A stretch of 64,000 bases of DNA from a bacterium. GTDB taxonomy: Bacteria; Bdellovibrionota; Bdellovibrionia; Bdellovibrionales; Bdellovibrionaceae. Positions 44,661 to 55,880 of the stretch are shown in pieces. The first letter of the stretch is position 1, and every line of letters begins with the position of its first letter. Where the stretch lies: NCBI GenBank assembly GCA_019752925.1, contig JAIELP010000003.1:1-64000 (forward strand). The letters are read 5' to 3'. The notes beneath the pieces are model-generated. The model made no database searches. It worked only from the letters and a program-made list of their open reading frames with translations, and had not been told where the DNA came from. Made by a program: the position numbers and the translations under genes.

Positions 44661-44996
44661 ATGAAATCTTTAATCGTCTTATTAACAGTAATGTTAAGTT
44701 CATTAATGTCACAATCAGCTACGTTGGAATGTAAATCTTTTATTAATCTCGATGAAGTAACAAGTTCAAATGTTATAACTTCTCTAAAAAAACAGGTTCT
44801 CATCGACAAACTAGATGAGATTACTACTTATGTTACAGAAACTAAGTCTAATGTATTTTCATTGGAAGCATTTATCCCATCATTAGAACAACGCATTTAC
44901 AGTGAGGCTGCGTTAAATAATTTAAATGACGAAATTAAATCGACGGCATGGGCGCGTGAAATTTTAGTAGATGTTGTTTGTAAAAGAATTCGTTGA
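44661..44996 (+). CDS. Small exported protein, function unknown
   Basis: 111 residues. A signal peptide (LIVLLTVMLSSLMSQSA, cleavage near residue 20) precedes an 85-residue alpha-helical domain. Only two Cys (C24 and C107), near the two ends of the mature chain, could form one disulfide. GGGGAT precedes the ATG. Its stop overlaps the arfB start as TGATG. No family recognised. Confidence 0.65.
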   Translation: MKSLIVLLTVMLSSLMSQSATLECKSFINLDEVTSSNVITSLKKQVLIDKLDEITTYVTETKSNVFSLEAFIPSLEQRIYSEAALNNLNDEIKSTAWAREILVDVVCKRIR

Positions 44997-45397
44997 TGAA
45001 AATTGTTATACCATGGAATGAGTTAGAGTTTACAGCTACGCGTTCATCGGGAGCGGGTGGTCAGCATGTGAACAAAACTAATTCGGCGGTGCAGCTCAGA
45101 TTTTCTGTTATGCGGTCACTAGTATTAACGGATTACCAAAAGCACAGAATTATCAAAAAACTGGCACACCGTATAGTAGGAGATAATGAAATTTTAATCC
45201 GTAGTGAAGAAGAGCGGGATCAAAAACGAAATAAAGACAAGGCCTACGAAGATTTAAATAAAATGATTAATGTGGCGCTGATTGAGCCAAAAAAACGCGT
45301 AGCCACTAAACCTAAAAAAAGCTCTATCCAAAAACGTTTGAATACTAAAAAACACAACAGTGAAATAAAAAAAGGCCGTTCCGGAAAATGGGATTAG
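44996..45397 (+). CDS. arfB: Alternative ribosome-rescue factor / peptidyl-tRNA hydrolase ArfB (YaeJ)
   Basis: 133 residues. The catalytic GGQ motif is in SGAGGQHVNKTNSAVQL (residues 21-23). A C-terminal basic tail (KKSSIQKRLNTKKHNS) enters the empty mRNA channel of stalled ribosomes in the E. coli homologue. Length and tail fit ArfB, not RF1/RF2. Translationally coupled to the small exported protein (1-base overlap TGATG). An in-frame TTG directly before, at 44993, is an alternative start. Confidence 0.93.
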   Translation: MKIVIPWNELEFTATRSSGAGGQHVNKTNSAVQLRFSVMRSLVLTDYQKHRIIKKLAHRIVGDNEILIRSEEERDQKRNKDKAYEDLNKMINVALIEPKKRVATKPKKSSIQKRLNTKKHNSEIKKGRSGKWD

Positions 45398-50217: not shown

Positions 50218-52902
50218 ATGAAGAATAATTTTTATCTAAAATCTGCTAAATGGGCGGCTGCATATTTGTCATGTTTGACTATGGTATTTGCACCTGTAGC
50301 GATGGGTAAAGAAGCTGAAGAGATGACTCAAAAAAGCGTTCAGCAGTTGGTAAAAGATCTGGGGCTCGATAAAAAAATGACTCTAGGTGAGTTCTGGGAA
50401 AAAAATAAAGCCTTAGTTCCGGGCTATGTTTACCGTGATTTAGAAAACTTCGTTAAGCAAAATAAAAACATGCAGATGCCGGAAGTTACAACTGATGTTT
50501 CAAAAGCCACAGACGGCTCTGAAATTCCAGTCCTGCGCTTTACAAAGGACGGTAAAACTCAAACGGCTCAAATCTTTGGCGAAAAAGAAAAGTGGGTCAA
50601 ATTCAACGGCGTAACCTTAAGCGAGCGTGACTTAGAACGTGTTGAAGATGTTTTTAAACGAATTGAAGGCAGTGATATTAAACTTAAGCGTAAAGCTGAT
50701 AAGTATCGTCAGAATAAATCTCAAATCCAAAAAAACAGCGCCGAACAAAAACAATTGGATATTTATAAAAAAGACTTTGCCAGATTTAACGGGTTTCCGC
50801 GAGTAACTCCACAGATGTGGAAGTCTTTAACTAAAGAGCAGAGAGTGGGATACATTGTAAAAATGCGTTTAATGTGGATGAATGCCCGCAAAGTTTTAGC
50901 GGTTTCTCCACAACCGTCAACTCCAGTGAATAAATCAAAACCTTCCGCAGCTGTCGAAAACTTTTATAAAGTTATTTTTGGTGAACAGGCCTATGCTAAG
51001 CCTATTTTGCCGCCTCCTCCAGGGCAGGTTGCCGGTAAACCCATTGCTGAAATGGGCGTGCAAGTAAGAGGAGCATCGGTTCGCGTAAGAGACAACCGAG
51101 GTACAACTCGAGTGGTGTCTATTCCGTACAACGCAGACACTTGTGTAGTTGCCGGCTATATTGGTGCTTACGGTAAAGTAAGTAATGTTAACGGTGATAA
51201 CCGTGCAGGTTGTTCAATTGATTTAGCGTTAGCAACATATAAAAATAATCCAAGTTTAGAATTCGTTCAGAAAGCTAATGAGGCCTGCGCAGCTAAATCT
51301 AGTACGATGGTAGCCTGTAATCCAATTATTTACGGCTATCCAAATGGTGCTGAAGCATGTATCGATAGAAAATCTAATGAGTATCAGCATGCAACTCATT
51401 TTTCGAGTCCAAGTAATAAAGAAACTTGCGATGGTAAAAGCCGGCTTGCAAGCAATGAAGATATAATTAAATTTAATGATAAAGATTATTCCAATGTTCA
51501 GCCGCGCGAAAAACAAATTCAGGCTATTGAAGCCGATCAGCAAAAAGATGATTATGCGTTAACTAACTCTTACTTAAAAGGTGTGCTGACTAAAAAAGAC
51601 GGCATCTTGGCCGCTATGTTTGAAAAAGGCGAGTGGAATTTGGCCTTAGATGAAGAGTTAGTAAAAACACAATTACAATTTGAAGAGGAAATAGATCGCG
51701 CTATTAAAACCTGTGAAGCGGATTTTGCCAAAACGCAAACAAGCTCAGGCGCTGCTATCACGCGCGAAACTAATCAAAAATTAGCCTGTGATCAATTGCA
51801 CCGACGTTGGTTGTTTACAGAAAGGGCTATTGCAAAATTAAGAGATAAAGCCTGTCTTAAACCAGCTCTTTATATCGGGAATTATAATGGAAACGAATCT
51901 TCTTATGCAGATTCGGCGAAAGAAAAAACAGCTTTAAATAAACGTACAATTGACGCTAAAGGAACTGGTCTTTGTGAGTGCCCTTCGTCTACTCCGACAG
52001 TTCCTGTTACCGAAGCAGTTGCACCGACGTCAACATCAGGTGATGTAAGCGCAGCTCAAGCGAAAGCAAAAAGAGTTAGCTTCGGTGAAAAGTGTGAAGA
52101 GCCTCCAGCTCCTGCACCGGAGCCAGTTCCTGCTCCGCCAGCTTGCTCTGACGGTCTTGATGCAACTAAAGTAGATGGCGTAGATGTTTGTGCTTGTAAA
52201 AACAATGCTGCTATTTTTGTAAAACCTGGAGATCCTGCACCTAATTGTGAAAAACCGACGCCGTCTAAGTGTGATAAGCCGGAGGGTATCGCTGGTTTTA
52301 ATTATGAACAATGTAAATGCGATGATGGTAAAAAACTGAAATTCACAGCCGGTGATGATGGTGGTTACGAGTGTGAAGGTAAAAATTGGTTGCCTTGGGT
52401 TTTAGGAGGATTAGCACTACTGTTCTTCTTCTTTAAGAAAAAGAAAAAGGATCCTCCTCCGGTTGTAACACCGCCGGGTCTTTGTCCTTCAGGCAAAACA
52501 GGAACACCGCCTAATTGCGTTTGTGCTAACACATGTTCAGTAGGTACTTTAAACCCAACAACTTGCGGTTGTGACGTGATTCCTCCGGCTTCATGTACTC
52601 CACCAAAAGTGGGAACACCTCCGGCATGCACGTGTCCGGCTGCGCCTTCCTATTGCACGCCTCCACAAAAAATATACGACGCTAACACTTGTCAATGTAC
52701 GGATGTTCCGCAGCCTCCGACATGTGCCGATGGTTCAGTGGCCCCTGGCGGTAATATTTCTTCTTGTCCGACATGTCCGGATGGGTCGTATAGAACAACT
52801 TCATCGACTTCGAGACCAGGCGGCTGCCCGGCTGAAGGCGGAGGAGGCAACAATTGTCCACAGGGCGGCTGCAGTGGCGGATTACCAGGAACAGGAAACT
52901 AG
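50218..52902 (+). CDS. Giant exported protein with internal membrane segment and Cys/Pro-rich tail (paralogue A)
   Basis: 894 residues, no recognised family. Signal peptide to about residue 30. Residues 30-700 hold several shared blocks with the next gene: GLDKKMTLGEFWEKNK, CVVAGYIGAYGKV, ACNPIIYGYPNG, HATHFSSP and ACDQLHRRWLF. A hydrophobic segment (WVLGGLALLFFFF, near 725-740) is followed by five Lys. The last 150 residues are Pro/Gly/Thr-rich with 18 Cys in C-x-C and CPDG-type spacing. GAGGT precedes the ATG. No catalytic motif is seen. A surface or envelope role is plausible. Confidence 0.8.
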   Translation: MKNNFYLKSAKWAAAYLSCLTMVFAPVAMGKEAEEMTQKSVQQLVKDLGLDKKMTLGEFWEKNKALVPGYVYRDLENFVKQNKNMQMPEVTTDVSKATDGSEIPVLRFTKDGKTQTAQIFGEKEKWVKFNGVTLSERDLERVEDVFKRIEGSDIKLKRKADKYRQNKSQIQKNSAEQKQLDIYKKDFARFNGFPRVTPQMWKSLTKEQRVGYIVKMRLMWMNARKVLAVSPQPSTPVNKSKPSAAVENFYKVIFGEQAYAKPILPPPPGQVAGKPIAEMGVQVRGASVRVRDNRGTTRVVSIPYNADTCVVAGYIGAYGKVSNVNGDNRAGCSIDLALATYKNNPSLEFVQKANEACAAKSSTMVACNPIIYGYPNGAEACIDRKSNEYQHATHFSSPSNKETCDGKSRLASNEDIIKFNDKDYSNVQPREKQIQAIEADQQKDDYALTNSYLKGVLTKKDGILAAMFEKGEWNLALDEELVKTQLQFEEEIDRAIKTCEADFAKTQTSSGAAITRETNQKLACDQLHRRWLFTERAIAKLRDKACLKPALYIGNYNGNESSYADSAKEKTALNKRTIDAKGTGLCECPSSTPTVPVTEAVAPTSTSGDVSAAQAKAKRVSFGEKCEEPPAPAPEPVPAPPACSDGLDATKVDGVDVCACKNNAAIFVKPGDPAPNCEKPTPSKCDKPEGIAGFNYEQCKCDDGKKLKFTAGDDGGYECEGKNWLPWVLGGLALLFFFFKKKKKDPPPVVTPPGLCPSGKTGTPPNCVCANTCSVGTLNPTTCGCDVIPPASCTPPKVGTPPACTCPAAPSYCTPPQKIYDANTCQCTDVPQPPTCADGSVAPGGNISSCPTCPDGSYRTTSSTSRPGGCPAEGGGGNNCPQGGCSGGLPGTGN

Positions 52903-52910
52903 GAGCTATT

Positions 52911-55220
52911 ATGAAATGGTTTAAAACGTTAAATATATTCAAATGGACTATGGTGTGGACCTCAATTTGGACGATGACTATGTCACCAGTTGCTCTTGGT
53001 CAGCAAGCTAAGCAAGTTACTAAAAATGAAATGCAGACGGCTTTAGATCAAATGGGTCTTAATAAGTAAATGACACTCGGTGAATTCTATAAAAAAAATA
53101 AATATTTATTTCCAGAGCGTATACGAAAAGAAATTGAGCCAATCTTTATGGCTAATAAAAACATGATGATGCCGTCATTTGAGGTTATTTCATCTAAAAC
53201 TACATCTGGTGAGGAAATTCCAACTGTGAGAATGTCGCAAGGTGGGGAATTAATCAATTTACAATGGTTTGGCGAAAAAGATCGTTTGTTAAAATTCCAA
53301 AATACAAATTTAAGTGAAATAGATGTGATTAATTTTGGAGATATGTACACGCGTATTATTGCCGGCGATGAAAGATTCAGAAAACAGATAGAACCAAAGG
53401 TTCCTCTTAAAAAAGATTCAACTAAAGCACCGGCTAAAGTACTTCCTGATGTAACAACGGCTGAATGGAAAAGCATGACAGCTTATCAAAGAGCCAATTA
53501 CGTAGTTAATATGCGTACTTTGTGGCAAGACGCCCGTGCAGTATTGAATGCTAAAAAAGCTAATATAAAGCCTAAGTCTAAAAAAACTTCTCAGCATATT
53601 TTTGAACAACATCCGTATTTTGCGGCTCTGTTTTACACTCCGGCTGCTGAAGCCAATGGTGCAGCAAAAGTTGTTGTAAGCCAGACGCGTACAGAAAGTC
53701 GTACGGAATACACTTTTATAGGTAATACCTGTATTGTGGCCGGCTATGTTGCTAAGTACGAAACTGTGACGAGTGCACAGGTTTGTAACCATACTGTAGC
53801 CGATAGAGCTTATGCACAAAAAGATAATTCATTATATTTGAAAGCTAAAGAAGTTTGCGCGAGAGATAGTGGCAAAATAGCTTGTAATCCTTATGTTTAC
53901 GGCACACCCAATGGCAGCCCAACTTGCATAACGCCATCTAGAACAGATAATAATTTTCAAAAAGCAACGCACTTCGATGGCCCTTGTGATACAGCCAGCC
54001 GGTTACAGGCGTCTCCTACTGAAGTTGAAATTTTAAAAGATAAAAATAAAACAAATGGACGTTATGAAGATGGTAATCTTTTGTCTGAACAAGAACGTCG
54101 TGAGTTATTTAAAACTGAACAAGGTAAAGAAAACTATAAATTAACTGAAGATTATTTACTAGGTATTTTAAAATTCAGAGGTGTTGTTAAAACTGATGCT
54201 AAAGGCTTGTTCGAAACTGACGTAATGAATGATGAAATTCTTAAGCAAATTAAAATCGACAAACAGGCTTTTGATAGCGAGATTCGCGAAGCTTTGGCTA
54301 GTTGTAAAGCAGAATCAGAGGCAAGTAAGGCTAAACCAGTAACTCACGAAAAAAACTACTGGCAAGCCTGTGATCAATTACATAGACGTCATACTTTTAT
54401 TAAAGAACTTTTTGAATCAAAATGTGAAAGTAAATCACTTAATGAAGAAACATTAAAATGTAAATGTACAACGCCTGGAACAAATGAAGTATTACCAGGC
54501 GCAAAATGCGCTGCTGTGAATCCTCCAGCAGTTGTGGCGGCAGTTCCATCTGCGGATGTTACGCCTGCAGTGGCTCCACCATCAGCTGATGTAACTGAAT
54601 CTAAAAAATCTTGCGAAGAAAGATATCCAGGAGCCGGCGTATCAGAGCCTTCTTGTTTGTGTCCAAACGGACAAGCACCGACAAATGATGCAACTGATGG
54701 CGCATCAGGTATGCAGTCATGGTCATGCGCTTCAAAACCTAATAAGCCTAGTAAAAAAGAAGATGAGTGCGGTATTTTATGTAAAATCTGGAAAGGTGTT
54801 AAGTTAGTTGCGCCGTTTGTAATTGCTGGTGCTGTGGCTTACGGTCTTTACAAATTATTAGCTCCTAAAAAACCAACTTTAAATGCCCCAACGGATAAAT
54901 GTCCGGATGGATCAATTCCTCCGTGCGGTCAAGTTTGTACGGCTCCGTTAAAAAAGCAAGCTAACGGACAATGCTCGTGTGATGGCTGTCCTCCGGGCCA
55001 AACAGCCAATGCTGTTACTTGTACTTGCTCGACAGGTACGGGGACTGGTACTGGTACCACAACTTATTTATGTCCGGATGGTCAAACGCGTAAAGCTAAC
55101 TTGGATGAATGTCCGACATATGCGTGTTGGAATGGCCAAAGCTATCAGAACCCTATGAACTGTCCAACTCAAGTACCAAATACAAATGGTTCAAGTGGAA
55201 CGGGTTCTGGAACTCGCTAA
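52911..55220 (+). pseudogene. Paralogue B, interrupted by an in-frame TAA at 53067-53069
   Basis: The same frame encodes a signal peptide and 52 residues (ATG 52911 to NK), then TAA, then at once an ATG (53070) and 716 residues that continue the alignment with paralogue A. At the stop, A has GLDKKMTLGEF and B has GLNK-stop-MTLGEF, so one base change (AAA to TAA) explains it. B keeps CIVAGYVAKYETV, ACNPYVYGTPNG and ACDQLHRRHTF, a membrane segment near codon 630 and a tail with 12 Cys. It may be a recent pseudogene, a readthrough gene or two polypeptides by reinitiation. AGGAG precedes 52911. Confidence 0.75.
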
Positions 55221-55304: not shown

Positions 55305-55880
55305 ATGTTATCTCCAGCGAATGAACACAGAGAAATTCCTAAAAGCCGAACAGGCCGAGTTCCCGTTAAAAAAAATGAAATTGATTTATTTAAAAGAGAT
55401 GATTTCTTTATTGAAGACCATTTAGGTTTTCAAAGCGGTTCTCAAAACCGTTCTGGTTTTAAGCTGGCTTTATGGTCATGGATGTCGGCTTCTATCGATA
55501 CACTTATTTTAATATCAATCAGTTGTTTTTCTATGATTCTATTTTCATTTTTAATGAAAAGTCCTGCGCGTGATTTACTCAATATCGGCTCAATAGAATT
55601 CAATGCAGCAAAACTGTTCATGATTTCGTTTTTATTCAGCTTTTGGGTTTACCTTGTTATGATGCGCATATTTATGGGGGCTTCATTAGGTGAGTGGTCA
55701 TGTCAGTTACGTTTAGGCCAACCTGTTCAAAGAATTAAGACTAGCTACATTTTCCGCGTAATCGCCAGAACAACCCTTATTTTAATAACAGGTGTTATTA
55801 CATTGCCGATACTTTCTTTAATTCTAAAAAGAGACATCGCCGGTGAATTAACCGGTTTAAAAATTTATTCCCTAACTTAA
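55305..55880 (+). CDS. RDD-family membrane protein
   Basis: 191 residues from ATG 55305. An N-terminal charged segment precedes three or four membrane helices; FKLALWSWMSASIDTLILI and IFMGASLGEWSCQLRL fit the RDD family, small inner-membrane proteins of unclear function, sometimes Na+(or Li+)/H+ antiport-linked. An upstream in-frame GTG (55227) would add 26 residues but overlaps no better signal. It converges on the methyltransferase gene by 9 bases. It lies 84 bases after paralogue B. Confidence 0.72.
   Translation: MLSPANEHREIPKSRTGRVPVKKNEIDLFKRDDFFIEDHLGFQSGSQNRSGFKLALWSWMSASIDTLILISISCFSMILFSFLMKSPARDLLNIGSIEFNAAKLFMISFLFSFWVYLVMMRIFMGASLGEWSCQLRLGQPVQRIKTSYIFRVIARTTLILITGVITLPILSLILKRDIAGELTGLKIYSLT

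Follow-up and report, generated by a model that had tools for sequence, protein, structure and literature searches.

The window, a stretch of 64,000 nt from the genome (2.74 Mb, 14 contigs, 94% completeness) of a Bdellovibrio-type predator of the Bdellovibrionaceae, carries two adjacent paralogous genes, A and B, that are preceded by a PilZ-domain gene and followed by a gene for an RDD-like membrane protein (Table 1). The products of A and B share ∼35% identity. Gene A ends at a TAG codon (52900-52902), and five bases separate the TAGGAG motif that includes this codon from the ATG start of B at 52911. The reading frame of B reaches its terminal TAA at 55218-55220, and is interrupted near its beginning by another TAA. 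If B and the RDD-like gene are co-transcribed, polarity from the stop codon inside B would reach the latter. Scans for promoters and terminators gave results no richer than those obtained with shuffled sequences.

Table 1. Features of the A-B locus, in window positions.
Feature	Coordinates	Strand	Description
Paralogue A	50218..52902	+	Intact, 894 aa; exported-type, Cys-rich; C-terminal transmembrane segment
TAGGAG, Shine-Dalgarno-like, serving B	52900..52905	+	Overlaps the stop codon of A; duplex -6.5 kcal/mol
Paralogue B, overall	52911-55220	+	Interrupted by an in-frame TAA
B, first 52 codons	52911..53066	+	Signal-like sequence (...MSPVALG/QQA...) and start of the mature N-terminus
In-frame TAA in B	53067..53069	+	Sense codon in B orthologues (CAA, AGT, TCG, TCA, CCA, AAA)
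B, remainder	53070..55220	+	716 codons and terminal stop, free of decay; reinitiation possible at ATG 53070
RDD-like membrane protein gene, downstream of B	55305..55880	+	PF06271, 22.1 bits, just missing the cut-off of 24.1

Judged from sequence, A and B are a tandem pair of large Cys-rich proteins, predicted to be exported, that is conserved in a Bdellovibrio-type genus. Most genomes of this genus, whose members are titled Bdellovibrio, Pseudobdellovibrio or Bdellovibrionaceae and include the complete chromosome of Bdellovibrio sp. qaytius, carry both genes; most of the relatives compared are metagenome assemblies. More distant homologues of the pair at 50218-55220 occur in related genera of the family, and one relative contains an additional B-like copy away from the tandem locus (G001:C16:18500-19894). 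A first contig scan with B alone as the query gave no match. Neither B nor any sequence in alignment A1 had a Pfam match at E 0.01, and A had solely PF07295, at 13 bits and below the cut-off of 26.1. There were no NCBIfam matches for either protein, and a PDB sequence search of the pair found none. The AlphaFold model of B is weak (pLDDT 59), and a PDB fold search with this model gave no significant match.

The initial annotation had described a TAA directly abutting an in-frame ATG in B, followed by 716 codons free of any further stop. Both statements are correct, and the frame is open to 55220. It had also pointed to a signal-like N-terminus and to the continuity between GLNK, before the stop, and MTLGEF, after it. 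The signal-like sequence and the continuity with homologues are both borne out; the N-terminal region of B, taken across the stop, is 54-56% identical to the orthologues of genomes G010 and G002. The residues ahead of the TAA are MKWFKTLNIFKWTMVWTSIWTMTMSPVALGQQAKQVTKNEMQTALDQMGLNK. Used as a query, residues 1-108 of B gave 23 matches in 12 of the 14 genomes of the genus, and among them the B gene of the window is alone in having a stop inside the N-terminal match. The other 22 homologous N-termini, including those of nine other B genes, are all uninterrupted at the site. A second genome of the same species was searched for and none was found.

We then examined which codon the relatives carry at this position, a comparison that the initial annotation had proposed with AAA, TAA and CAA in mind. 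TAA occurs in none of them. The two best tblastn matches, in G010 and G004, have CAA, and the remaining B orthologues encode Ser, Pro or Lys (AGT in G002; TCG in G003; TCA in G001, G005 and G013; CCA in G009; AAA in G012), while paralogue A has AAA. The methionine that follows is ancestral in many members of the family (MTxGEF), so that the stop is the sole novelty. Because the two best-matching B orthologues carry CAA, the stop would most simply have arisen by a CAA to TAA transition, TCA and AAA being likewise one step away; we infer this direction from the aligned codons. The earlier proposal of a single AAA to TAA change is thus right in that one substitution suffices, whereas its AAA was taken from paralogue A and the two best-matching B orthologues point to CAA.

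To evaluate decay, we counted in B the positions downstream of the stop that are conserved in other family members. B retains 48 of 49, 87 of 88 and 113 of 115 such positions at conservation thresholds of 100, 90 and 80%, respectively, which is the best or joint best result among 11 sequences. With the part after the stop undecayed, B thus bears one lesion only, and its remainder has been under family constraint until now or very recently. In the B homologue of another genome, G008, an in-frame TAG lies within a transmembrane segment (L010:1133-1135, on G008:C65; same record as L070), and the frame stays open past it; the source is a fragmented metagenome assembly. This second stop may fit a gene that is occasionally dispensable, on the sequence of a contig that is a fragment.

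The quality of the assembly was assessed by comparing the ORFs of G002, G003, G004 and G010 with the window and 376 kb more of the same genome. In 76 distinct genes, amounting to 25,016 compared codons, the stop of B is the only interior nonsense codon and frameshifts number zero; the remaining stops fall within the first 30 alignment columns and are read as lying upstream of the true starts. Poor assembly quality in general was consequently rejected. The main rival to a genuine nonsense allele is that the gene itself is intact and the TAA is erroneous, through a fault in consensus, assembly or base calling, or else stems from a minority strain in a mixed assembly. The complete lack of decay past the stop is what such an error would leave, and the assembly is in 14 contigs and 94% complete, with relatives that are largely metagenome assemblies. 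The clean background just described argues against it, as does the position of the stop, which is not in a homopolymer of the kind prone to indels. Isolated substitution errors are rare in a polished consensus. We regard an error as unlikely, though it deserves serious consideration. A decoding of the TAA as sense, with production of full-length exported B, is less probable still. The undecayed downstream frame is just what readthrough would preserve, and frequent readthrough has been proposed for stops that lie in frame within conserved genes of bacteria (PMC7918605). B resembles the putative readthrough genes of that study (Belinky et al. 2021) in having an in-frame stop within conserved coding sequence; unlike them, its stop is shared with no relative and comes with no recoding element that we could find. 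The same authors regard many such stops as short-lived. An alternative genetic code was rejected, given that TAA, the predominant stop in this genome, ends 103 of 149 long ORFs. Three genes of the RF-1 family, all of them open, were read as both release factors plus a short paralogue of the rescue type; a short RF-1 domain protein is encoded at window positions 44993-45397 and is possibly an ArfB-type ribosome rescue hydrolase. Among 29 tRNA matches, for which 150 of 233 candidates were scored, none had the TTA anticodon of a UAA suppressor. The RNA that surrounds the stop is less stably folded than shuffled sequences (z 1.56) and contains no Rfam element. The readthrough option of the initial annotation thus finds neither a suppressor tRNA among the candidates scored, nor a missing release factor, nor a cis-acting RNA element.

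The abutting ATG raised the further option that termination at the TAA is followed by reinitiation, so that a short peptide is exported, a separate protein of 716 residues stays in the cytoplasm, and both are functional. Single substitutions can create a stop in B by 370 routes. Of these, 4 (1.1%) put the stop immediately ahead of an ATG, and with all start codons counted the number is 7 (1.9%). A coincidence of 1-2% is mild and was singled out post hoc; it slightly favours a reinitiation that is tolerated or selected and cannot carry the claim. Eight other open frames in 440 kb of the genome have an in-frame stop and start with no gap, and their translations, compared by eye, resemble different neighbouring genes, the case at L057 being doubtful. 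In this last record, L057:319-1280 (on G000:C12) consists of consecutive in-frame open segments split by TGA, with a repeated motif AKLPVxxSSxxV*FAMPVIVG, and probably is the antisense of a repetitive gene. Zero-gap junctions show that the geometry is translatable, which speaks for reinitiation; as they are common between neighbouring genes, they are normal in this genome and a TAA-ATG does not in itself mark regulation. The undecayed 716 residues and, in the weak structural model, a first helix starting at residue 3 also agree with a second product. On the other side, Shine-Dalgarno pairing at ATG 53070 is weak (-3.1 kcal/mol) compared with that of the normal start of B, whose ribosome-binding site is good (-6.5 kcal/mol), and the split that a functional pair would be expected to keep is found in none of the 22 other copies. 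The Cys-rich domains and the membrane segment, which are of the exported-family type, would moreover be left without a signal. The zero-gap stop-ATG is a feature that B shares with gene junctions here and with translational coupling at abutting stop-starts of operons; it differs from the latter in that its halves form one ancestral protein, no relative is split and the second half loses the export signal. In E. coli, coupling where stop and start codons adjoin or overlap was found to be independent of ribosome recycling, and the authors of that study argue against coupling models based on reinitiation; reinitiation by one and the same ribosome is thus not required at such junctions (PMC7538156). 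Taken together, these data make functional reinitiation improbable, and a newly evolved split, in which a tiny secreted peptide and the reinitiated cytoplasmic protein have acquired a new role, more improbable still.

The explanation that we consider likely is that the TAA of B marks a nonsense allele, either very recent or still segregating, by which the exported B protein is silenced while A is left intact. This is the recent-mutation option of the initial annotation, and it agrees with the features of a young pseudogene: every relative has an uninterrupted frame at the stop, and B has a single lesion, explicable by one substitution, that no further decay has followed. A single base change, in the simplest case from CAA to TAA, would stop translation prematurely at codon 53. 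Ribosomes that begin at the normal start would then make a 52-residue peptide that is mostly signal sequence, so exported B would be lost or nearly lost. We infer this loss of export, and also the recent or segregating state of the mutation, the latter because of the absence of decay downstream of the stop and from that alone. The inherited methionine codon at 53070 may permit some passive reinitiation, generating a cytoplasmic product devoid of signal and perhaps softening polarity on the next gene. In experimentally evolved Bdellovibrio populations, nonsense substitutions reach high frequency, for instance a C-to-T change producing Q156* (PMC9888234). With recent ochre alleles and young bacterial pseudogenes B shares an early stop due to a single substitution, intact relatives and an undecayed remainder; in contrast to the typical young pseudogene, its stop directly precedes an in-frame ATG, and next to the gene stands its tandem paralogue, which is intact.

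Overall, the regulatory readings found no positive support, and the interruption of B looks like ordinary loss of function or a base-call error and not like new gene regulation. If reinitiation were true, one substitution would relocate a protein through the loss of its signal peptide. Beyond annotation the finding has little significance. A start called automatically at ATG 53070 would point to a cytoplasmic gene of 716 residues; B should instead be listed as the gene of an exported protein that probably carries a nonsense allele.
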